Shown one piece after another: positions 5,215-17,006 of a stretch of DNA of 55,890 bases (its first letter is position 1; each line of letters opens with the position of its first letter). The notes beneath the pieces are model-generated. The model searched no databases. It saw only the letters and a program-made list of their open reading frames with translations, and was not told where the DNA came from. A program made the translations under genes and the position numbers. This stretch comes from Mogibacterium sp. Lineage in GTDB: Bacteria > Bacillota > Clostridia > Peptostreptococcales > Anaerovoracaceae. Where the stretch lies: positions 1 to 55,890 of the forward strand of contig JAFRGC010000088.1 of the NCBI GenBank assembly GCA_017434025.1, given 5' to 3'.

Positions 5215-6552
5215 TCACTGGATATCTTCTCCTGCCCCCAGTTCAGACCTAGCCTGAGAGACCTCAGATTCGCTGAATACGCCGCTATACAGCCTGTTGC
5301 AGAGGCTGATGCCATAATACAGTTTCTCGCTGTCAGAGCCGTTAACAGCAGCCTTAGGAACGACGATGATCTCAGGGTCCAGGAGGACATTGCCCTCCTC
5401 GTCTTTGAGGCGGTCCTGCATTTCTGACTTCGCCGCAGATGCGTTATCCATGCTGTTCACCACTATTATGATATAGTCCGGTGCCCAGCTTATTATTTTG
5501 TCGTCAGTAACTGTCTTATCTTTCGATCCTGCGACGTTATTCGCTTTCGCCATGTTGAGCAATGCGCTCTTGCCTGTCGTCTCGTGATCACCGATCTCAA
5601 TGTAGCAGTCTGCCTTATCTGAGTCGCTGATGTTCACATAGCTGAGCTGTGTATCCCAGTATTTGTACGCGTTATACTCCCAATGCGCGTACAGTGTCAT
5701 ATCTGAGTCGCTGTCGAAGATATCTTCCTCTGATACCTGTGTGCCGCCTTCCGGCTCAGTGAACCATCCGATGAGCTCATATCCGTCATATGCCGCTCCT
5801 GGGAACGATCCGTAAGCATCACCCTTCCGGACAGTCTTCGTGCTGTCACCAGAGCTGATCGAACCGCCATTAGGGTCAAATGTCACTCTAGCCGAAGCCT
5901 GCGGTATCGCCTTCCAGTGCGCGTACAAAGTGACGGTTCCGCTGCCGGTGACTTTGGTTTCCGCGGTCACCTTCTCGCCGCCCTCTGCTTCTGTGTACCA
6001 GCCTTCAAAAGTATATCCTTCCATCTGCGGAACAGGCAGTTCTCCCAGAAGATCTCCCTCTGAACGTGTGAATTTCCCTCCGGATACTGTACCACCATTG
6101 GCGTCAAGCGTCACTGTGACGGTCTTGATCTCAGGCAGTTTGCCGCCGCCTCCGCCACCGCCGTTCCTGCGCGGTACTCTCGGTGTGCCCTGCCTGTTGC
6201 CGCCCTGCTGGTTCTGGCTGGTATCTTCCGGTCCCTCCGGCTCCTCTATCGTCTCCGGATCGTAGTTCTCCATCTCGCTCTCGAAGTTCTCGTCGTGGAA
6301 TTCCTCTTCCTCTTCCTCAGGCTGACCGCTGAAATCAAAGCGCGAGAATACTGACTCCTTCGTCTCCGTGAGTCCCAGCTCGTCCCGCCTCATCTCGTAT
6401 TCATCTCTCAGCAGGCCATCTTCGTCAGGCACCGTCCTGGAATAGTTGGTGTTGTCAGTGACGCGCACTCTGCATCCGCACAGAAGCAGCATGCACAATA
6501 CGATAGATGCGAGGCATAATATTCTGATGTTTGCTGTTCTCTTATAATGCAT
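5215..6552 (-). CDS. Lipoprotein with two InlB-type repeats and a binding-protein-like C-terminus
   Basis: The 445-residue protein begins with a lipoprotein signal peptide ending in LLCGC (lipid-carrying Cys 27). An acidic, glycine-rich linker with a GGGGGGG run follows. Next come two copies of the roughly 70-residue InlB B/Listeria-Bacteroides repeat, recognisable by LDANGG...GYTFEGWYTE...TLYAHW and FDPNGG...GYELIGWFTE...TLYAHW. The last 150 residues (SWAPDYIIIV..., DPEIIVVP) resemble half of a metal-type periplasmic binding protein. It is the last gene of the MoxR operon, overlapping the preceding gene by 11 bases. It is probably membrane-anchored and exposed on the surface. The ligand is unknown. 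Confidence 0.7.
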   Translation of the reverse strand: MHYKRTANIRILCLASIVLCMLLLCGCRVRVTDNTNYSRTVPDEDGLLRDEYEMRRDELGLTETKESVFSRFDFSGQPEEEEEEFHDENFESEMENYDPETIEEPEGPEDTSQNQQGGNRQGTPRVPRRNGGGGGGGKLPEIKTVTVTLDANGGTVSGGKFTRSEGDLLGELPVPQMEGYTFEGWYTEAEGGEKVTAETKVTGSGTVTLYAHWKAIPQASARVTFDPNGGSISSGDSTKTVRKGDAYGSFPGAAYDGYELIGWFTEPEGGTQVSEEDIFDSDSDMTLYAHWEYNAYKYWDTQLSYVNISDSDKADCYIEIGDHETTGKSALLNMAKANNVAGSKDKTVTDDKIISWAPDYIIIVVNSMDNASAAKSEMQDRLKDEEGNVLLDPEIIVVPKAAVNGSDSEKLYYGISLCNRLYSGVFSESEVSQARSELGAGEDIQ

Positions 6553-7888
6553 ATCTGAAATGTGCTCTCAGCTTGTCCTTCCAGTTCATTTTATTTCTTG
6601 CTGCCGCCATCGTTTCCTTGAGGAAGGATGACATCTGCTGTCTGTCTTCATCAGTCATAGAGTGATCACTGTACACAGCTTCTTTCCAGATCTCAAGCAT
6701 TGCGGAATACTTCGCCGCATATTCGTCTGCCAGCTCTCTTCTGACATTTTCCTGCATCGCTGAGAAAGCCGGCTCTTCCGGACTTATCCCGCAGGCTTTG
6801 AGCCAGCGTACAGCGTATGGGAACATCGCGCCTATCGATCTGTTAGGGTCATCGCTGTCAAGGCCTGCTCTGACAGCCTTCCGGCGCTTGCTGAGCCTCC
6901 TGTGCAGCAGGTACAGCACCGCAGCTATTGCGAGCACTACAGCCGCCAGTCCAGCCCACGCAGTAACCGAAGCCTCATGACCGGCTTCTCCGCGCAGCAC
7001 ATCGATAAGGCTCTCATTGCTGCGTTCTCTCTCCTCCGGCTCCTGCAGATCGGTTATATCCTGCTCTCCGCCTTCTATGTATGCGCTCCTGAGAGCGAAC
7101 ATATCTCTCAGGTTCTCATTGGCGCGGGATACCGCGTAGTTCTCGCCGGGATCCGCAAACACGACCGCCCCGAAAACAAGTGCGACAGCCAGCAGTATCG
7201 GAAGCGCTGCTCCGATCCTGCCGTTGGCATAGGACAGCAGGAGCGTCAATATCATAGCGATCAGGCATGGTACGGAAGGGATGACCCCCAGATACGCAAA
7301 CAGGATCATGACTACGATAAACAAGCCGGTGTTGACTGCCCTGCGGTATGCTGCAGGAGGCAGTGCCGCGATAAATCCAATCAGTGCCGATCCCCACACT
7401 GCCGCGAGTCTCAGACACATCTCAGGATCTTCTTCGCCTTGGGCTCCCACTGAGAGCATATCATATACGTATGCCTGCGACATCTCCGACTGTTCGAATA
7501 TGCTGTTGATGATCAGCGCCATTCCATTGCCTATATATTTGCGCAGCAATACGGCTGCCGCTATGAGCAGTACCGCTATGAGGATCCTGAGCCCCATTCT
7601 CAGCCTCTCATCGAGACCTGCCATCGCGGTCCCCGTCAGCATGAACATGAGGAATCCCGGCAGGACGAACGGCAGCAGCATGATGTCACCGGTCATGATG
7701 ACAAACGATGCAATCGCAGCCGTGACAAACAATGCCGAAACGATATCAAGCCCCAGCCGGCCTCTGATGACTCCAGGTTCGCCCTTCCTGAGCCCGATCA
7801 TCGACTCAGTATTACGGACGCTGACAGTAAAGGTGTCAGCCGGAATGTCTCCTACTATGAAAATGTCAGAGCCTGTCGTCTCCTTCAC
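6542..7888 (-). CDS. Multi-spanning membrane protein of the MoxR-DUF58 operon
   Basis: The 448-residue protein has about eight hydrophobic segments between residues 48 and 255. A loop of about 55 residues follows, then one more membrane segment near 308-330 and a soluble, charged C-terminus. The position after moxR and a DUF58 gene is where many bacteria encode a membrane-bound transglutaminase-like protein. Here no Cys-His-Asp transglutaminase core is visible, so only the membrane scaffold and C-terminal part seem to be kept. The GTG start has AGAAGAGG upstream. Function unknown. Confidence 0.6.
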   Translation of the reverse strand: MKETTGSDIFIVGDIPADTFTVSVRNTESMIGLRKGEPGVIRGRLGLDIVSALFVTAAIASFVIMTGDIMLLPFVLPGFLMFMLTGTAMAGLDERLRMGLRILIAVLLIAAAVLLRKYIGNGMALIINSIFEQSEMSQAYVYDMLSVGAQGEEDPEMCLRLAAVWGSALIGFIAALPPAAYRRAVNTGLFIVVMILFAYLGVIPSVPCLIAMILTLLLSYANGRIGAALPILLAVALVFGAVVFADPGENYAVSRANENLRDMFALRSAYIEGGEQDITDLQEPEERERSNESLIDVLRGEAGHEASVTAWAGLAAVVLAIAAVLYLLHRRLSKRRKAVRAGLDSDDPNRSIGAMFPYAVRWLKACGISPEEPAFSAMQENVRRELADEYAAKYSAMLEIWKEAVYSDHSMTDEDRQQMSSFLKETMAAARNKMNWKDKLRAHFRYAL

Positions 7889-10142: not shown

Positions 10143-10168
10143 AAAAAGCCGCCCTGCCAGAGGGCGGC
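10143..10168 (-). terminator. Terminator of the dehydratase-like operon
   Basis: GCCGCCCT (10148-10155) pairs with AGGGCGGC (10161-10168). On the minus strand TTTTT follows. It lies about 35 bases past the stop of the 56-residue gene. Confidence 0.85.
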
Positions 10169-10202: not shown

Positions 10203-10373
10203 CTACAGATGCTGGTTCCTTGGGATCCTGTCATAGTGCTTGAGCAGGAACGGCTCTATCATGGAAGTCAGCTTCATATCCAGATTGAAGAAGTAGACTG
10301 TGAATGTCACTACAAACAGTCCGGATACTGTAAGAAGCAGATACAGAAGTGCTTTGAGTGCTTTCTTTTTCAT
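10203..10373 (-). CDS. Tiny single-pass membrane protein in the dehydratase-like operon
   Basis: This 56-residue reading frame has a clear GGAGG 9-10 bases before its ATG. It encodes a short basic start (MKKKALKAL), one hydrophobic helix at about residues 9-29 ending in VYFFNLDMKL, and a polar tail with KHYDRIPRNQHL. It begins 24 bases after the large dehydratase-like subunit and stops just before the operon terminator, so it belongs to the operon. The layout suggests an inner-membrane peptide with a cytoplasmic or exposed 27-residue tail. No function is recognised. Confidence 0.75.
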   Translation of the reverse strand: MKKKALKALLYLLLTVSGLFVVTFTVYFFNLDMKLTSMIEPFLLKHYDRIPRNQHL

Positions 10374-10397
10374 TGTGTGTTCGCCTCCTATTGCATT

Positions 10398-11996
10398 TTA
10401 CCATGAATTCTCGTCATCAAGGAACTCGAGTGTAGGATCGAGCGGTTCTTCCTGCATGACTGTTCTCATATACTGGTTGACCTGGTCTCTGACTCCCTGT
10501 CTCGATACGACACGAGGGTCGAAGAGCTGATGGTCTACCCAGATCAGAGGAATTCCGAGCTCTCTTGCTCTGTCCTCGAACATGCCGTGCATGCCGTCCA
10601 GAGCCTTGCAGGTGATGTGCTCCCAGAGAATGATCATGTCAGCATTGTACTCCTCGACAAATCTGAAGAGGTCGTTGAGCAGTACCTTATAACCGCCGTG
10701 TGTACGGTTACGCATGATCATTTCCTCAGTCAGCATCGCCATATCGTAATAAGCCTGCTCTCTGTTCTCCGGAGTATCGGTCTCTGCGATCATCTCAGTA
10801 TTGATGCAGGAGAGCATGTCTGTCAGCGGGACGATTCCCCAGCAGTTGAGCAGCCATACGAGGAAGTCCATGTAGAAGTGCGACTGTACACCCCATACGA
10901 TCGCTCTGTGGCGATACTCAGGAGCTGCCATTCTGCGCTTCTTGTAAGCCTGCTCAGCCAGCTTCATGAGCTTCTTGTCGCATTTCTCGAAGTCAGGAAC
11001 TTTGCCGCAGATAGCCATGTAGTTGGTCTCTGTGTAGAGTGCGAGGTTGCCGCCGAAGATCTGCGGATAATCAGTCTTGTTCATATCCAGCCATTCGTTA
11101 CGGCATCTCGTAGCGATATTGACTCTGCGAGCGCATTCGAAGTAGTAATCCCAGTCCCACTTGTGGCCTGTATGTTCTTCGATGAACTTGATCGCTCTGC
11201 GGATCTCTTCAGCAGCATAGTCCTGAACATCATCTTGTTTGTGGCGAAGAGGTGCAGGCAGCTGGAATACAGGGATACCGTCTTCCTTCTCAAGTCTCTC
11301 GGAGATGACTCCGTTGCCGAGAAGTGAACCGTCGCAGGTCGTGTTGCACTGTACGGCGCATGCACCGAGGATCGGAGCGTCATCGTCGATCGAAACGCCT
11401 GCCTCTGCCTCTGGCATCGGACATACGTCTCCGGCAAGTCCGAATTCCTGTGCAACGTCGATGTAGTGTTCAGCAGCATGCTGGTTGAGCAGTACAGAAA
11501 CGTAGGTCGATGGAGTTTCACGGCTCGTGCACTTGAGGTTAGGGAATCCCATCATGACTGCCGTCATCTCATTCTCGTCTACGAGGACGTTGATCTTGGA
11601 GAACTCTTCATCATTGCCGATCCTGCGGTCACCGCGGAAGAGCGTGTTGAGCAGTTTGGCTACGTCTATGATGATGAGGTCCTGTTCCTCATGAGCCATC
11701 CTGAGGTATTCACCTCTGAGGCCCTGTGTGAAACGGTCAACCATCATCGGTACTGCCAGATAGTTCGCCATCCAGCGATATCTGAACATAGCCTTGACAT
11801 TGCGCGGTACCATTACGAATTTGCCCAAAGTCATCATGATACCGAGCCAGCGCCAGTAATCGTACAGGGTGTCCTGCACGCCGCGCCACTCACGGCGCTT
11901 ACGTACTTTGCCATGAGGCTTGTACAGGTCGCCGTATCTGGTGTCGCCCTTGATCTTCTCAGGGTTTACCATTGTTTTGAATTTCTTGACTGCCAT
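10398..11996 (-). CDS. 2-hydroxyacyl-CoA dehydratase-like protein, larger subunit
   Basis: The 532-residue protein looks like an HgdB/benzoyl-CoA-reductase-type protein (HGD-D family). Cysteines that may bind a [4Fe-4S] cluster are at 156 (LKCTSRETPS), 192 and 213-221 (GACAVQCNTTC). A second Rossmann-like half holds VWGVQSHFYMDFLVWLLNCWGI and ADMIILWEHITCKALDG. It is longer than the usual 370-440 residues because of about 100 extra N-terminal residues rich in Arg and Trp. It overlaps the smaller subunit gene as TAATG, so a heterodimer is likely. The substrate is unknown; classical members dehydrate 2-hydroxyacyl-CoAs by a radical route. Confidence 0.75.
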   Translation of the reverse strand: MAVKKFKTMVNPEKIKGDTRYGDLYKPHGKVRKRREWRGVQDTLYDYWRWLGIMMTLGKFVMVPRNVKAMFRYRWMANYLAVPMMVDRFTQGLRGEYLRMAHEEQDLIIIDVAKLLNTLFRGDRRIGNDEEFSKINVLVDENEMTAVMMGFPNLKCTSRETPSTYVSVLLNQHAAEHYIDVAQEFGLAGDVCPMPEAEAGVSIDDDAPILGACAVQCNTTCDGSLLGNGVISERLEKEDGIPVFQLPAPLRHKQDDVQDYAAEEIRRAIKFIEEHTGHKWDWDYYFECARRVNIATRCRNEWLDMNKTDYPQIFGGNLALYTETNYMAICGKVPDFEKCDKKLMKLAEQAYKKRRMAAPEYRHRAIVWGVQSHFYMDFLVWLLNCWGIVPLTDMLSCINTEMIAETDTPENREQAYYDMAMLTEEMIMRNRTHGGYKVLLNDLFRFVEEYNADMIILWEHITCKALDGMHGMFEDRARELGIPLIWVDHQLFDPRVVSRQGVRDQVNQYMRTVMQEEPLDPTLEFLDDENSW

Positions 11997-13192
11997 TACT
12001 CTCCCTCCTTCTGGATCTTCTTGATATCGATGCTTTCCATGAACGCCTGTACACGGGTGCGCATCTGTCCGGAGGAGCCGATAGCGTATGGACGGTCAAC
12101 GGAGAGTACCGGATGACCGTATCTTGCTCTGAGTATGTGCGATCCCATCATCTTCTCATAAGCCCATGGGTCGCAGAATTTCATCTGCTGATAGATGATG
12201 CCGTCAGCCTTGTATTCCTTGGCCAGCTTGTCAACGTATTCACGTCTTGCATCCATCTTCTGAGTATTCATGTAACGAGGGCATTCGCCTCTGTACATAT
12301 ACTGCCTGCAGATCTGTGTCAGAGCATCCTCTTCATCATTGAGTTCGATCGGGTCTCTGCCCGGCAGTGAGCCGTAGCAGAATCTGTCAGCACATACGAA
12401 CGCGCCGCTGTCCTCGACGAGTTTGATGAAGTCGGTGTCATCGACCTCGGACCCAACTACGAGTACTCTTGCCTTGAACCATGGTTTCGGATCCGGTTCT
12501 CTGGTCTTGAGTTCTTCGAGGGTCTCCTCGAGTTTGTCGATGATCAGGTACTTAGGTGCTGCATATGATGCGAGACACAGCACATTGTACTCATATCCTG
12601 TGATCGTCGGATTGTCAAGCTTACGGAAATCTCCGATCGCTCTGAGCAGTTCACAGACATGATTGTGTTCAGCTACAGCCTGGCGGATAGCAGCATCGCT
12701 GATATCGATGCCGTAGTTCTCTGCCAGAGGCTTGAGAATGTGGTTCTTACACTGTACGACATAGAGATCCAGGCCGTTGTAGTCAGCCTTCATAGGGATC
12801 TCCATGTAGTCGAAGAAAAATCCTTCTTTGTCAGCGCCCATCGCTTTGAGGAGTTCCATATTCTCAACGCAGCGGTTGAGCATGGAGCATCCATCAGGAG
12901 TGATCATGGCATCGAGAAAATTGAACCCCCCTTCCAGCGCTCTCTCGAGCATCGCTCTTGAGTACTCGCAGAGAAAACTGGTCAAATAATAAGTCCCTAC
13001 GTCTATTGAACCTGTTCTCGGTGCACGGAGTCTCGCGGAGAAGCATCCCGGCAGATTGAGGAGTGGCTCAGGAACGTTCTCGCACATATAGCCTATGCAC
13101 TTCTTCCCCTCTTCCTGTGCCTGCCTGATAAGATCGTTATTAGCTTCCTGCAGCAGGTCTTCAAAATAAATCAGATGTTTAAGGTCTTTCAA
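11996..13192 (-). CDS. 2-hydroxyacyl-CoA dehydratase-like protein, smaller subunit
   Basis: The 398-residue protein is a recognisable member of the HgdA/HgdB/BcrB/C family. Cysteines that could ligate a [4Fe-4S] cluster are Cys37 (MCENVPEPLL), Cys75 (FLCEYSRA) and Cys102 (PDGCSMLNR), at the spacing the family uses. The C-terminus has the family signatures ADGIIYQQMKFCDPW and GQMRTRVQAFMES. The length is normal. It is translated just before the 532-residue partner. No ATP-dependent activator (HgdC/BadF type) is encoded nearby, so the electron source is uncertain; the iron-sulfur flavoprotein of the same operon is the obvious candidate. Confidence 0.82.
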   Translation of the reverse strand: MKDLKHLIYFEDLLQEANNDLIRQAQEEGKKCIGYMCENVPEPLLNLPGCFSARLRAPRTGSIDVGTYYLTSFLCEYSRAMLERALEGGFNFLDAMITPDGCSMLNRCVENMELLKAMGADKEGFFFDYMEIPMKADYNGLDLYVVQCKNHILKPLAENYGIDISDAAIRQAVAEHNHVCELLRAIGDFRKLDNPTITGYEYNVLCLASYAAPKYLIIDKLEETLEELKTREPDPKPWFKARVLVVGSEVDDTDFIKLVEDSGAFVCADRFCYGSLPGRDPIELNDEEDALTQICRQYMYRGECPRYMNTQKMDARREYVDKLAKEYKADGIIYQQMKFCDPWAYEKMMGSHILRARYGHPVLSVDRPYAIGSSGQMRTRVQAFMESIDIKKIQKEGE

Positions 13193-13224
13193 ACCTGTAC
13201 CTCCTGTGAATTATCTTCAATTGA

Positions 13225-13452
13225 CTACCACAGCTTGTCTATAGCATCTGCGATCCTCTTGCCCTGCTCAGCGTTGAGCTTGCATCTGAGCTGTCTCTTG
13301 ACCTCTCCCATTGGATATTCTTTGGCTTTTCCTTCTTCAATACGTGCAAGGATAGCCTTCTTAGCCTCCTCACTCATCGAACCATCGCCAGGAAGGCCTT
13401 TGAGGATCAGTTCCAGTTCTTCCATACTGATATCCATTTTATATAGTGTCAT
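13225..13452 (-). CDS. Small conserved-looking protein of the dehydratase-like operon
   Basis: The 75-residue protein has AAGGAGG 7-8 bases before its ATG. It is predicted to be helical, charged and soluble (MDISMEELELILKGLPG..., KRQLRCKLNAEQGKRIADAI). It contains a single cysteine and no membrane segment. It lies between another tiny gene and the smaller dehydratase-like subunit, 32 bases from the latter. The family is not recognised. A role as a small subunit or assembly factor is only a guess from position. Confidence 0.7.
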   Translation of the reverse strand: MTLYKMDISMEELELILKGLPGDGSMSEEAKKAILARIEEGKAKEYPMGEVKRQLRCKLNAEQGKRIADAIDKLW

Positions 13453-13485
13453 TACTATTTCCTCCTTGGTCCTTTCTGTCTGTTA

Positions 13486-13677
13486 TTACTTCTTGTTCTT
13501 CTTTACTTCAGCGGCAAGCATCTTCTCGAGTCTTTCAAGTGCCTTTGCGTCGAGAGCATTGTCATCTCCCGCAAAGAATGCTTCGAGATTCGGCAGGCGG
13601 ATGCCGGCTTTGTAATTCATCTTGAACATCTCAACACCAAGAGACTCTTTGATGTTGCGCATTTCCTGTTTGGTCAT
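13486..13677 (-). CDS. 63-residue protein of the dehydratase-like operon
   Basis: A perfect AGGAGG five bases before the ATG at 13677 fixes this start. The frame is open 59 codons further upstream, but that part overlaps the HypA-like gene. The product is small, basic and probably helical (MTKQEMRNIKESLGVEMFKMNYK..., ending EVKKNKK), with no cysteine and no membrane segment. It sits 33 bases before the 75-residue gene. No family is recognised. The strong ribosome site suggests it is well expressed. Confidence 0.7.
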   Translation of the reverse strand: MTKQEMRNIKESLGVEMFKMNYKAGIRLPNLEAFFAGDDNALDAKALERLEKMLAAEVKKNKK

Positions 13678-13708
13678 ATTAACCTCCTTATATAAAAGGC
13701 AGCTGTCG

Positions 13709-14074
13709 CTAAGGCGTATCCTCGCCGGGATCTTCGACCTCGATCTCCTTGATCCGCATCTCATTGCCGCGGAGCAGCCATGTGTGTCCGCTGCCGCAGT
13801 GAGGGCAGGTCTTGCCGTACTTGATCGTCGAATAAGTGATCTTGCAGTCATCACACCATGTCACCGCAGGGATCTCTTCGCATTTGAGCTTAGATCCCTC
13901 GAACAGCGGGAATTTCTTGGTATACCAGTCCCAATAGTTATACAGATAGGACGTGACGATACCCGAAACCTCGCCAAATTCAAGCGTGACAGAGCTGATC
14001 TTGCTGACGTGATTCTCCTCAGCGATCTTGCTTACCTCTTTTACTACATAATTTACAAGTCCCAGTTCGTGCAT
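13709..14074 (-). CDS. HypA-like metallochaperone/zinc protein
   Basis: The 121-residue protein has the HypA layout. His2 and Glu3 form the N-terminal nickel-binding start (MHELGLVNYV), followed by an alpha/beta core with LEFGEVSGI. The zinc ribbon has Cys74/Cys77 (CDDC) and Cys90/Cys93 (CPHC). HypA normally delivers nickel to [NiFe]-hydrogenase, but no hydrogenase or other hyp gene is in the window. It lies 17 bases after the iron-sulfur flavoprotein gene and is followed by dehydratase-like subunits, so it may serve metal insertion or complex assembly for this system. The assigned role is an inference. Confidence 0.75.
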   Translation of the reverse strand: MHELGLVNYVVKEVSKIAEENHVSKISSVTLEFGEVSGIVTSYLYNYWDWYTKKFPLFEGSKLKCEEIPAVTWCDDCKITYSTIKYGKTCPHCGSGHTWLLRGNEMRIKEIEVEDPGEDTP

Positions 14075-14091
14075 ATGATTTCGATTATCCT

Positions 14092-16875
14092 CTATCTGCC
14101 TGCAACTTTATTCTTGATGATTCTGGTAACACGGCCCGGCATGTTCTTGCCGATTCCGATGAACTTATCCTCAGCACGCATCATTCTGGAGTACAGATCT
14201 CCATCCGGACGGCGGATCAGGTGGATAGCGTCGAACTTGCACTGTACGGTACACATTCCGCAGCCGATGCACTTATTCTGATCAACTACGCTGCGTCCGC
14301 ACTTGAGACATCTCTCAGCTTCCTTCTTGATCTGCTCTTCGCTGAACTGCTTGATCTCGTAATCCATCGTGAGCTTCTTGCTCTCGTCGATAGCTCTTAC
14401 CTGACGTGCAGGCTTCTTGTATTCATTCGGAGGAAGTACGATATCATCCTTGTCGAGCATTGTGAACTGACGTGTATTTCTGTGGATCATCAGGTGCTGT
14501 CCTTCGTTGACGAACCTATGGAGCGATACAGCGCCTTCACGTCCCATAGCGAGTGCGTCTACGACGAACTTCTGGCCGCTTACGCTGTCGCCGCCTGCGA
14601 AGATGTCCTTCTCTGCTGTCTGCAGTGTGACAGGATCTGCAACGATGAATCCTCTCTGTGTCAGCTCGACCTTGGTGCCTTCGAAAAGTTTACCGTAATC
14701 AGGCTTCTGGCAGATGCTGAAGAGAATGGTGCTGCACTTCTGCTCTGTGGTCTGAGCATCATCGAATGTAGGAGCGAATCTTCCCTCTGCATTCTTGACG
14801 CTGAGGCACTTATGGAACTTGATGCCTGCAACCTTGCCGCCCTTGGTAACGACTTCTGTCTGGCCCCATCCATCATGGATAACGATGCCTTCGTTCTTGA
14901 GGAATTCCTGATCCTCTTCGCCCATCGGCATCTCGTCATAGGACTCGAGGCAGTACAGATGTACGCTCTTAGCGCCCTGACGGATAGCTGTACGAGCTAC
15001 GTCGGCACCGATGTTGCCGCCGCCGATAACGACTACGTCACCGCTCAGTTTGGCAGCTTTGCCGAGTGTTACATTCTTTACATAGTCAACACCGCCGATG
15101 ACTCCTTCAGCGTCATCGCCAGGGATGCCGAGTCTTCCGCATGCCTGCAGACCTGTTCCGACGAAGAATCCCTTGAAGCCCTGCTCTCTGAGCTGCTGGA
15201 TGGTAACGTCCTTACCGACTTCTACGCCGCATCTGATCTCAACGCCCATTGCCTTGAGGACGTCGATCTCAGCGTTGACGACCTTCTTGTCAAGTCTGAA
15301 GTTAGGAATACCGAGTGTCATCATTCCGCCAGGCATCTCCTGCTTCTCGAATACTACAGGCTTGTAGCCTTCGATAGCGAGGAAGTAAGCGCAGGACAGT
15401 CCCGCCGGACCGGAACCGATAATAGCGATCTTCTGATCGAACGGCTCTCTTGTGGTCGAAACCATTGGTGGAATGTACTTGTGCTCATCCTCGAGATCCT
15501 TAGCTGCGATGAATGCCTTGATGTCGTCGATAGCAAGAGCGTCATCGACTGTGCCTCTTGTACACTCGAGCTCGCAGTACTTATGGCAGATAGCTCCGCA
15601 TACTGCAGGGAACGGGTTGTCTCTCTTGATCAGCTCGAGAGCAGCTCTGTACTCTCCTCTGCTTGCCATGTCAATGTAGCCCTGGATCGCGATGTGGAGC
15701 GGGCATGCAGACTTACAAGGTGCTGTACCTGTAGGCCATGTCTGGATGACGCCGTTCTCGTTCTTGTAGTTCCAGTTCCACTTCTCCTCAGGCCAGACGT
15801 TGCTTTCAGGCAGTTCCTGCTTAGGATATACGATGTCACCGTGCTTGGTGCAGAGCTTCTGTCCGAGTCTGACAGCGCCAGCCGGGCAAACCTCTACGCA
15901 CTTGCCACATGCTACGCACTTCTCAGGGTCAACTTCGGATGCGTATGCAGATGCTGACATGTTCGGTGTATTGAAGAGCTGTGATGTACGAAGAGCGTTG
16001 CAGACGCCGACAGCGCAGTTGCAGATCGCGAAGATCTTGTTCTCACCGTCGATGTTTGTTACCTGATGTACATAGCCCTTATCTTCAGCCCTTTCGAGTA
16101 CTTCGAGCGCTTCTTCATAAGTGATGTCATAGCCCATGCCGGTCTCTTTGCAGTAGTCAGCGAAATCGCCGAGACCCATGCACCAGTACTGCATGATATC
16201 TCCGGATCCCTCGCCTCTCTCTGTCTGCTGCTTACGGCAGGAGCAAATTCCGAGACCGATCTGGCCTTCGTATTTCTTGAGCCAATACGAGATGTGCTCG
16301 ATATCGAGCGACTCGCACTCTGCAGGGATAGCCTTCTCTACAGGGATGACGTGCATTCCGATACCGTTACCGCCCTTGCCTACCATCTGTGTGATGCCTG
16401 CAAGCGGCAGATATGTCATACGCTCGAAGAAATCAGCGATCTCAGGAGTCTCAGGCATGATCTGATCTCTCATGACCATGATCTCTGCTGCACCAGGTAC
16501 GAACATATCCAGAACGTAACGTCTCTCGTGCTGAGGGTTCTTGCCGTCCTCATTCTCATTGTTCCATTCAACAAGACCGAACTGGCCGAGTGCCTCAAGA
16601 ACTGTCTTCAGATGATCGTCATCATATCCTGTCAGTTCTTTCATCTTCGCGAAGGTCTTCGGCTTGCGCTTACCCATCTTAAGAGCAGTATCAAGACAGT
16701 CTTCAGCGATGTCTTTGCCATATCTCCTGACGATGTATTGATAACCGCAGTCAAATCCCCAATACTCCGGAGAATCCTTGGAAGGCTTCTCGAGTCCGAG
16801 GAGAATTTCCTTGCGGTCAGTGATGATCTTCGTAAGTTTGAAGATCTTCTCATCATGTGTCAGTTTTTTTGCCAT
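14092..16875 (-). CDS. Multi-cluster Fe-S/FAD oxidoreductase (GltD/BzdV-like)
   Basis: The 927-residue protein is first in the operon. Domains in order are: a helical N-terminal part with a winged-helix-like segment (residues 70-105); a cysteine-rich region with CSC near 211-213 and CNC near 285-287; a 4Fe-4S site CVACGKCVEVCP (320-331); a GltD/DPYD-type cysteine linker (387-438); an FAD motif IGSGPAG (486-492); a pyridine-nucleotide motif IGGGNIGAD (617-625); and a C-terminal ferredoxin-like pair (CLKCG at 856, CIGCGMC at 869). It should move electrons from NAD(P)H through flavin to iron-sulfur clusters. In context it is the likely electron donor to the two dehydratase-like subunits. Confidence 0.8.
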   Translation of the reverse strand: MAKKLTHDEKIFKLTKIITDRKEILLGLEKPSKDSPEYWGFDCGYQYIVRRYGKDIAEDCLDTALKMGKRKPKTFAKMKELTGYDDDHLKTVLEALGQFGLVEWNNENEDGKNPQHERRYVLDMFVPGAAEIMVMRDQIMPETPEIADFFERMTYLPLAGITQMVGKGGNGIGMHVIPVEKAIPAECESLDIEHISYWLKKYEGQIGLGICSCRKQQTERGEGSGDIMQYWCMGLGDFADYCKETGMGYDITYEEALEVLERAEDKGYVHQVTNIDGENKIFAICNCAVGVCNALRTSQLFNTPNMSASAYASEVDPEKCVACGKCVEVCPAGAVRLGQKLCTKHGDIVYPKQELPESNVWPEEKWNWNYKNENGVIQTWPTGTAPCKSACPLHIAIQGYIDMASRGEYRAALELIKRDNPFPAVCGAICHKYCELECTRGTVDDALAIDDIKAFIAAKDLEDEHKYIPPMVSTTREPFDQKIAIIGSGPAGLSCAYFLAIEGYKPVVFEKQEMPGGMMTLGIPNFRLDKKVVNAEIDVLKAMGVEIRCGVEVGKDVTIQQLREQGFKGFFVGTGLQACGRLGIPGDDAEGVIGGVDYVKNVTLGKAAKLSGDVVVIGGGNIGADVARTAIRQGAKSVHLYCLESYDEMPMGEEDQEFLKNEGIVIHDGWGQTEVVTKGGKVAGIKFHKCLSVKNAEGRFAPTFDDAQTTEQKCSTILFSICQKPDYGKLFEGTKVELTQRGFIVADPVTLQTAEKDIFAGGDSVSGQKFVVDALAMGREGAVSLHRFVNEGQHLMIHRNTRQFTMLDKDDIVLPPNEYKKPARQVRAIDESKKLTMDYEIKQFSEEQIKKEAERCLKCGRSVVDQNKCIGCGMCTVQCKFDAIHLIRRPDGDLYSRMMRAEDKFIGIGKNMPGRVTRIIKNKVAGR

Positions 16876-16976: not shown

Positions 16977-17006
16977 ATTTTATCATGTAACTGACCACTC
17001 GTTCAA
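16977..17006 (-). promoter_or_regulatory. Predicted promoter of the oxidoreductase-dehydratase operon
   Basis: On the minus strand TTGAAC (17001-17006), an 18-base spacer and TAAAAT (16977-16982). The leader is about 95 bases and contains a GAGAGG near the start codon. Confidence 0.5.

Follow-up and report, generated by a model that had tools for sequence, protein, structure and literature searches.

A two-module operon of Mogibacterium sp. combines an IsrA-type oxidoreductase with a benzoyl-CoA reductase-like subunit pair

Which reaction would call for two subunits resembling 2-hydroxyacyl-CoA dehydratases, a large iron-sulfur flavoprotein, a HypA-like metallochaperone and three tiny proteins? 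This question is raised by a seven-gene operon of Mogibacterium sp. (16875-10203, minus strand; coordinates refer to the window, i.e. the whole stretch of 55,890 nucleotides of contig JAFRGC010000088.1 analysed here, unless a compared locus is named). All seven open reading frames listed in an earlier note on this DNA are present on one strand, with intergenic gaps of 17, 31, 33, 32, -1 and 24 nt in gene order. Two modules, each also found separately, make up the operon. Module A comprises the 927-residue P0001, HypA and proteins of 63 and 75 residues, while module B consists of subunits of 398 and 532 residues and a 56-residue membrane protein with one helix. We regard it as roughly an even chance (probability about 0.5) that its products include two anaerobic reductases working in a common pathway, both on one lipophilic compound that is unsaturated or aromatic.

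Own-genome contigs are denoted C, compared loci L and genomes G. HGDl and HGDs stand for P0006-type subunits and their P0005-type partners, and TM for P0007-type membrane proteins. The host assembly has 2.2 Mb and is 84% complete. Relatives of the module B lineage number at least 539 and occur in gut and rumen Clostridia, Erysipelotrichaceae and Treponemataceae. Within the class, five of 291 genomes have an HGDl match at E<=1e-60, indicating a sparse distribution there. The 80 loci compared are the best 80 of these relatives and are rich in ruminant-gut genomes, so that statements on habitat are biased; the closest among them include Mogibacterium-like Anaerovoracaceae, several of ruminant origin. 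Our searches of the open literature brought up no description of module B or of its combination with module A, nor an account linking HGD-type subunits to HypA, HypB or CooC.

Cluster ligands and family placement of the P0005/P0006 pair

P0005 (398 residues, TTG start, 11996..13192, on the minus strand like all genes of the operon) matches PF06050 with 294.9 bits and is BzdN-like: C37, C75, C102, C272, C304 and C340 align with all six BzdN ligands of the [8Fe-9S] double-cubane cluster. These predicted ligands are conserved in 81-82 of 82 rows, the alignments of P0001, P0005 and P0006 including repeat copies of own-genome loci. Ligand alignment and fold match identify P0006 (532 residues, 10398..11996) as a BzdO/HadB-like catalytic subunit with about 90 extra N-terminal residues and C192, C221 and C463 as predicted [4Fe-4S] ligands. 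The stretch around C221 aligns cleanly with the double-cubane cluster protein (DCCP) and MbdO and is shifted relative to BzdO. In partial alignments the three ligand cysteines of P0006 are in place and the other three double-cubane positions are not seen. Judged by these alignments, P0005 and P0006 are predicted to form a heterodimer that has the cluster ligands known from class I benzoyl-CoA reductases (BCRs), and the kinship to double-cubane proteins suspected in the earlier note is borne out.

Module B shares with the class I BCRs BzdNO(PQ) and MbdON(PQ) the six double-cubane and three [4Fe-4S] ligands. It differs from them by the low identity of P0006 (14-16% in fold alignments), by scores below the BCR equivalog cut-offs (TIGR03190, 89.7 vs 453.8; TIGR03191, 14.6 vs 448.6), by the N-terminal extension and one-helix membrane partner, by the CooC- and ACS-like (acetyl-CoA synthase-like) partners of its relatives, and by the lack of own genes for a two-subunit ATPase activator in the operon. 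The best NCBIfam match of P0005 is the DCCP model NF040772 (137.1 against a cut-off of 350; P0006, 37.1). Like DCCPs (6eno, 7yyl), P0005 has all double-cubane ligands; in contrast to them, module B encodes a predicted heterodimer, and its second subunit keeps three ligands in place. Functions are known for few double-cubane enzymes. The module B lineage is strongly conserved. The host also carries a separate DCCP operon on C60 (L026, 6442-8858), with a double-cubane reductase scoring 491 bits against the cut-off of 350, a small protein and a BadF activator.

The earlier note had inferred a reductase or dehydratase. The PF06050 superfamily is indeed common to both enzyme types, and the P0006 model matches the folds of the HadB and BzdO catalytic subunits alike. 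However, HadC has P and A where P0005 has C37 and C272, and since it has thus lost two of the six ligands kept in P0005, a dehydratase function is unlikely. The scores against (R)-2-hydroxyisocaproyl-CoA dehydratase (HadBC) models are also far below cut-off (HadB, 31.6 vs 750; HadC, 87.3 vs 700), and unlike in HadBC and HgdAB systems no CoA-transferase or activator is linked in the operon. In contrast, a separate HadB/HadC-like pair on C82 (L028, 905-5344) lies with a CaiB-type CoA-transferase and an activase (HadC- and HadB-like subunits, 386 and 471 bits, under the equivalog cut-offs). We therefore regard an ordinary 2-hydroxyacyl-CoA dehydratase as extremely improbable.

Membrane partner, accessory genes and activators of module B

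P0007 (56 residues, 10203..10373) has one membrane helix with a peak mean hydropathy of 2.23 over 19 residues, followed by a conserved tail (NLDMKLT..EP..YD..RD.HL in a 62-row consensus). We counted genes on the same strand within 8 kb of 89 HGDl copies, which represent 88 loci and include the window and own-genome copies. TM proteins accompany 85 of them and HGDs 84, followed by IsrA-type proteins (32), BadF (28), HypA (26), ACS-like proteins (22), CooC (21) and HypB (9). These loci are not independent (L079/L081 and L087/L091 are near-copies, and L102 and L134 are the same locus). Some genes escaped gene calling, and selected loci were re-checked by tblastn positions. Among the 38 copies flanked by 5.5 kb or more on either side, IsrA is near 20, HypA 18, BadF 11 and CooC 8.

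The CooC-like ATPase of the relatives has CooC1 (3kje, 2e-17) as best PDB match and keeps C114 and C116 in 23/23 rows. The ACS-like protein matches PF03598 (1.4e-9) and acetyl-CoA synthase chains (6e-5) and has invariant C216, C219, C225 and H235 (24/24 rows). These operons thereby resemble the carbon monoxide dehydrogenase (CODH)/ACS system, from which they differ in that CODH occurs in 5/54 module-bearing genomes and that the ACS-like protein is similar to a single stretch of ACS and carries a small set of cysteines of its own (C216, C219, C225). BadF keeps C128 and C167, presumably its cluster ligands, in 34/34 rows. No description of this accessory set of one-helix TM protein, CooC-type ATPase, ACS-like protein and BadF was found in the literature searched.

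The earlier note stated that activator, CoA-transferase and CoA-ligase are missing and suggested an unusual electron supply. The first statement is true of the operon and untrue of the genome, in which PF01869 (BadF) has six matches in five open frames, five of them above cut-off. A function without activator finds no support, BadF genes lying beside a paralogous pair on C83 and within 8 kb of 28/89 HGDl copies. The C83 pair shows 38% (HGDl) and 55% (HGDs) identity to the window pair in the gene order small TM protein, HtpG, CooC-type ATPase, HGDs, HGDl, BadF, small TM protein, ACS-like protein. A third HGD pair on C35 has none of these partners, and a further partial pair lies at a contig end.

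In the HGDl tree the early-branching rows are mostly BadF-linked, with L154_5457, the C35 copy, L107, L103 and L065 as exceptions (the contigs of L103 and L065 end close to the HGDl gene). Within the 55-row clade of the window 54 rows have no BadF nearby, the single linked row being L076. Because the early-branching rows mostly carry BadF, the window pair probably once had an activator nearby, has lost it and now relies on one in trans, with the proviso that the tree was built by a quick method with midpoint root and long basal branches and that its 'neither' labels include contig ends. BadF thus stands beside many relatives, not beside all as the refutation envisaged in the earlier note would have it.

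An HtpG (Hsp90) gene inside the activator-bearing operon on C83 (L022:11688-13601) may hint at a need for folding or assembly. A 1441-residue protein on C11 (L029, 4778-9103) has two BadF-domain matches and is possibly a PlsA-type plasmalogen synthase. PlsA/PlsR belong to the same superfamily as the window pair. We rejected plasmalogen synthesis as function of the latter, nothing supporting it and the PlsA-like candidate sitting separately on C11.

The IsrA-type unit and its metallochaperones

P0001 (927 residues, 14092..16875) consists of an N-terminal domain without Pfam match, Fer4, Fer4_20, an FAD/NAD(P) domain and a C-terminal Fer4. C211, C213, C232, H270, C285, C287 and C292 are invariant in 38/38 rows from 35 loci; they include six N-terminal cysteines, of which four form two CxC motifs (C211xC213, C285xC287). 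P0002 (121 residues, 13709..14074) is a HypA-type metallochaperone (PF01155, 108.7 bits against a cut-off of 28.9). It has the MHE motif and two CxxC pairs, of which H2, C74, C77, C90 and C93 are kept in 46/46 rows; the score against the NCBIfam equivalog TIGR00100 stays below cut-off (74.1 vs 88.1).

This arrangement recalls the putative isoprene reductase IsrA, described from Acetobacterium wieringae ISORED-2 and put forward there as a nickel target (PMC10134865). The isr operon as presented there likewise encodes an FAD/NAD(P)H/Fe-S protein of about 900 residues, in which an uncharacterised N-terminal stretch of some 270 residues with six cysteines and two CxC motifs precedes Fer4, DPYD domain II, the FAD/NAD(P) domain and a C-terminal Fer4, next to HypA in a host without NiFe-hydrogenase; among 988 IsrA homologues, HypA is near 73% and HypB near 56% (PMC10134865). 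In domain order, cysteine motifs and HypA neighbour P0001 and P0002 fit the IsrA type (clade 9 oxidoreductases) by comparison with its published description. The isr operon differs by two HypA genes, HypB and a ferredoxin, and no HGD-type subunit is named in the accessible text; the words 'dehydratase' and '2-hydroxyacyl' are absent from its main text (PMC10134865). In the window two small proteins, the HGD pair and the membrane protein are added, and HypB is encoded elsewhere, by two tandem genes on C24 (L119:338-1711). HypB residues C95, H96 and C127 are kept in 54, 50 and 54 of 54 rows. It may be added that tandem HypB genes, here in a genome without NiFe-hydrogenase match, also occur in other module-bearing genomes (L120, L122, L127, L129-L132).

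The two small proteins of module A, S63 (P0003, 63 residues, 13486..13677; homologues in L037, L043 and L121) and S75 (P0004, 75 residues, 13225..13452; homologues in L037 and L121), appear to travel with the IsrA-HypA unit. This is suggested by genome G291, in which L121 holds IsrA, HypA, S63 and S75 and the HGD pair lies elsewhere (L031). That all three tiny proteins are genuine is confirmed by purifying selection in two or three pairwise comparisons with relatives each (S63, pN 0.14-0.18 and pS 0.80; S75, 0.30-0.31 and 0.69-0.74; P0007, 0.13-0.17 and 0.58-0.75 for non-synonymous and synonymous differences, respectively).

Does HypA serve the flavoprotein, the HGD pair or some ordinary nickel enzyme? 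The last was rejected for the host, whose 84% complete assembly gave no NiFe-hydrogenase or CODH match and a urease-like match only under cut-off. In 54 module-bearing genomes (drawn from 50 of the 80 loci and from five genomes added individually; G223 and G313 are the same genome and were counted once) we found HypA in 50, HypB above cut-off in 48, NiFe-hydrogenase in 17 and CODH in five (four above cut-off, one split over two contigs); urease exceeded its cut-off in 1/55 genomes searched, in a broken frame. Both HypA and HypB are present in 27 of the 33 module-bearing genomes with neither NiFe-hydrogenase nor CODH. Among genomes lacking NiFe-hydrogenase, HypA occurs in 33/37 with and 21/243 without the module (Fisher p 2.6e-24, kinship ignored), a comparison in which the genome sets were compiled by hand from separate searches, the module set was picked by similarity and HypA serves as proxy for IsrA.

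The 21 class genomes with HypA and without HGDl (E<=1e-60) or NiFe-hydrogenase agree with the account of IsrA in PMC10134865. Their HypA is full-length (E<1e-20) in 11, and in 11/11 of these an IsrA homologue and HypB lie alongside (L139-L146, L149-L151), in nine of them no more than 170 nt from HypA, in the other two separated from it by one DUF5692 gene. Of four loci inspected among the ten weaker HypAs, three are without IsrA (L155-L157) and one has an N-terminal-domain-like protein (L158). The HypA and the flavoprotein of the earlier note are better assigned to a partnership of their own that is already known, IsrA with HypA and HypB.

This bears on the idea that HypA, and in relatives HypB and CooC, bring nickel to P0005/P0006, which would then be a nickel-containing member of the BCR family. 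Such a reading could draw on the position of HypA between IsrA and HGDs in the window, on the CooC-type ATPase with its conserved CxC within 8 kb of 21/89 copies, on the ACS-like protein with invariant C216, C219, C225 and H235 near 22/89, and on HypA and HypB in most module-bearing genomes, few of which have NiFe-hydrogenase, CODH or urease. Against this, HypA and HypB accompany IsrA where no HGD is nearby, with published co-occurrences of 0.73 and 0.56 (PMC10134865), and all BCR-type Fe-S ligands are present while no known nickel site was recognised, which makes a nickel-dependent pair improbable.

Two side observations concern these units. DUF5692 membrane proteins lie within or beside HypB-IsrA-HypA units in L139, L140, L141, L150 and L151, as also described in PMC10134865, and L158 (G280, 5237-7303) encodes a 385-residue protein of IsrA N-terminal domain and ferredoxin cluster, adjoining HypB and an 84-residue HypA-like protein.

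Linkage of the modules and a possible joint pathway

In a tree of 50 IsrA rows the window protein falls into a clade of 16 with 100/100 support, spanning Anaerovoracaceae, Lachnospiraceae and Oscillospiraceae. Thirteen of the 16 are labelled HGD-adjacent (L080 divergently), and tblastn adds L098 and L106 to give 15/16, with L121 from G291 as sole exception; the operon is thus no chance grouping. Over the whole tree the HGD label requires 9 changes against 16.7 in shuffles. HGD-linked IsrAs form separate clades (the window/Oscillospiraceae type, a Roseburia type with CooC, BadF and ACS-like protein, and L033/L034/L036), between which gene order differs. The linkage would either have been made repeatedly or be old with repeated losses, and both fit a shared function better than chance. 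We therefore take the recurrent adjacency of IsrA and module B to point to a shared function. The halves might also be neighbours without joint function, as could be argued from their separation in the close relative G291 (L121, L031) and from the 13/38 well-flanked HGDl copies near which none of BadF, CooC, IsrA, HypA, HypB or ACS-like protein lies. Given 15/16 adjacent genes (one divergently) across three families and linkage in further clades with other gene orders, we consider this very unlikely.

Both units are also found alone: no same-strand IsrA lies within 8 kb of 18/38 well-flanked HGDl copies, and IsrA-HypA-HypB units without nearby HGD genes occur in other genomes. Each is thus probably an enzyme in its own right. 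This matters for the proposal that P0001 is the electron supply, feeding NAD(P)H electrons, perhaps by flavin-based bifurcation, through the BadF activator to P0005/P0006. Class I BCRs need a low-potential electron donor, and the FAD/NAD(P) and Fer4_20 core of P0001 is common to Nfn- and DPYD-type proteins. However, a pure electron carrier would need neither HypA nor a six-cysteine site, and IsrA-HypA-HypB units stand without HGD, including all 11 class genomes inspected with full-length HypA. We think such a supply role rather unlikely.

In the two-reductase pathway that we favour, NAD(P)H would reduce the FAD of P0001 and electrons would pass via [4Fe-4S] clusters to the six-cysteine site, to which HypA, with HypB encoded elsewhere, may supply nickel; there an unfunctionalised, probably conjugated, C=C bond would be hydrogenated. 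A BadF-type ATPase from the C83 locus, acting in trans, could use ATP to charge the [8Fe-9S] cluster of P0005 with low-potential electrons. The electron would then move to the [4Fe-4S] site of P0006 and reduce an aromatic or isolated double bond. P0007 might tether the pair to the membrane, and its helix makes a lipophilic substrate probable. A Birch-type product would be a diene, hypothetically a natural substrate of the IsrA-type enzyme.

Several observations weigh against this proposal. The operon itself has no activator, and use of one in trans is inferred. Activity and nickel content of IsrA itself are put forward as proposals in PMC10134865. BzdO Tyr97 is not kept, being Met194 in P0006, and Ser224 is the simplest counterpart of His131 (in a weak, variable alignment), so that the chemistry may differ from benzoyl-CoA reduction. 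G202, a 100% complete genome, has an HGD pair without HypA or HypB match, and coupling of HypA to the module is thus not obligatory; G007, G333 and G340 gave no HypA match either. Finally, the relatives lack phylogenetic independence, and a single gain followed by several losses could account for the linkage. In G291 the halves are apart, L121 holding IsrA-HypA-S63-S75 and L031 HGD-HGD-TM, so that the neighbourhood, whose splitting the earlier note had named as a counter-argument, is split in this near relative and kept in 15/16.

The repeated pairing of module B with IsrA-HypA offers a way of testing what both enzymes act on. With an aromatic substrate, the pair would be a membrane-bound Birch-type reductase; with an unsaturated lipid, it could help to name enzymes of anaerobic biohydrogenation. 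In a specific version of the latter the operon would hydrogenate unsaturated lipids, the IsrA-type enzyme acting on conjugated dienes and the membrane-bound, ATP-dependent double-cubane enzyme on the remaining isolated or aromatic bond. We offer this only as a long shot. If true, conjugated linoleic acid would be an example of a diene for the IsrA-type nickel enzyme, and the relatives with CooC, BadF and ACS-like proteins would form a new branch of nitrogenase-like alkene reductases. Butyrivibrio, a biohydrogenating genus, carries the HGD pair and the TM protein. Fatty-acid-isomerase-like proteins (matching 2b9w, which we take to be the polyenoic fatty acid isomerase of P. acnes, PDB title putative aminooxidase; E 1.8e-137 in L126 and 7.3e-42 in L141) lie 1.2-3.3 kb from IsrA. 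They occur in L126, L128, L140 and L141, i.e. at 4/65 IsrA-hit loci, repeat copies included. The genomes of L126 and L128 carry the HGD pair; all four loci are without an HGDl match, and their IsrAs fall outside the clade of the window protein. Oleate hydratase is described beside IsrA homologues in A. woodii in PMC10134865. The part available of a paper on conjugated linoleic acid (PMC13365329) holds nothing on the window pair. The Mlp gene clusters, for which the part available of PMC10418091 has no dehydratase, nickel or HypA terms, were set aside as unrelated.

With regard to transcription, the earlier note proposed one promoter and one terminator. The terminator 3' of the last gene is present (10148..10168, minus strand; 8-bp stem with seven G-C pairs, T-run), and a second intrinsic terminator lies upstream of the first gene at 17058-17034, terminator-like sites numbering 13 against 6.2 +/- 2.4 in shuffles. 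The upstream promoter is plausible (TTGAAC-N18-TAAAAT with TG preceding the second hexamer, 16977..17006, minus strand), but such sites occur at chance frequency (nine against 8.3 +/- 2.8).

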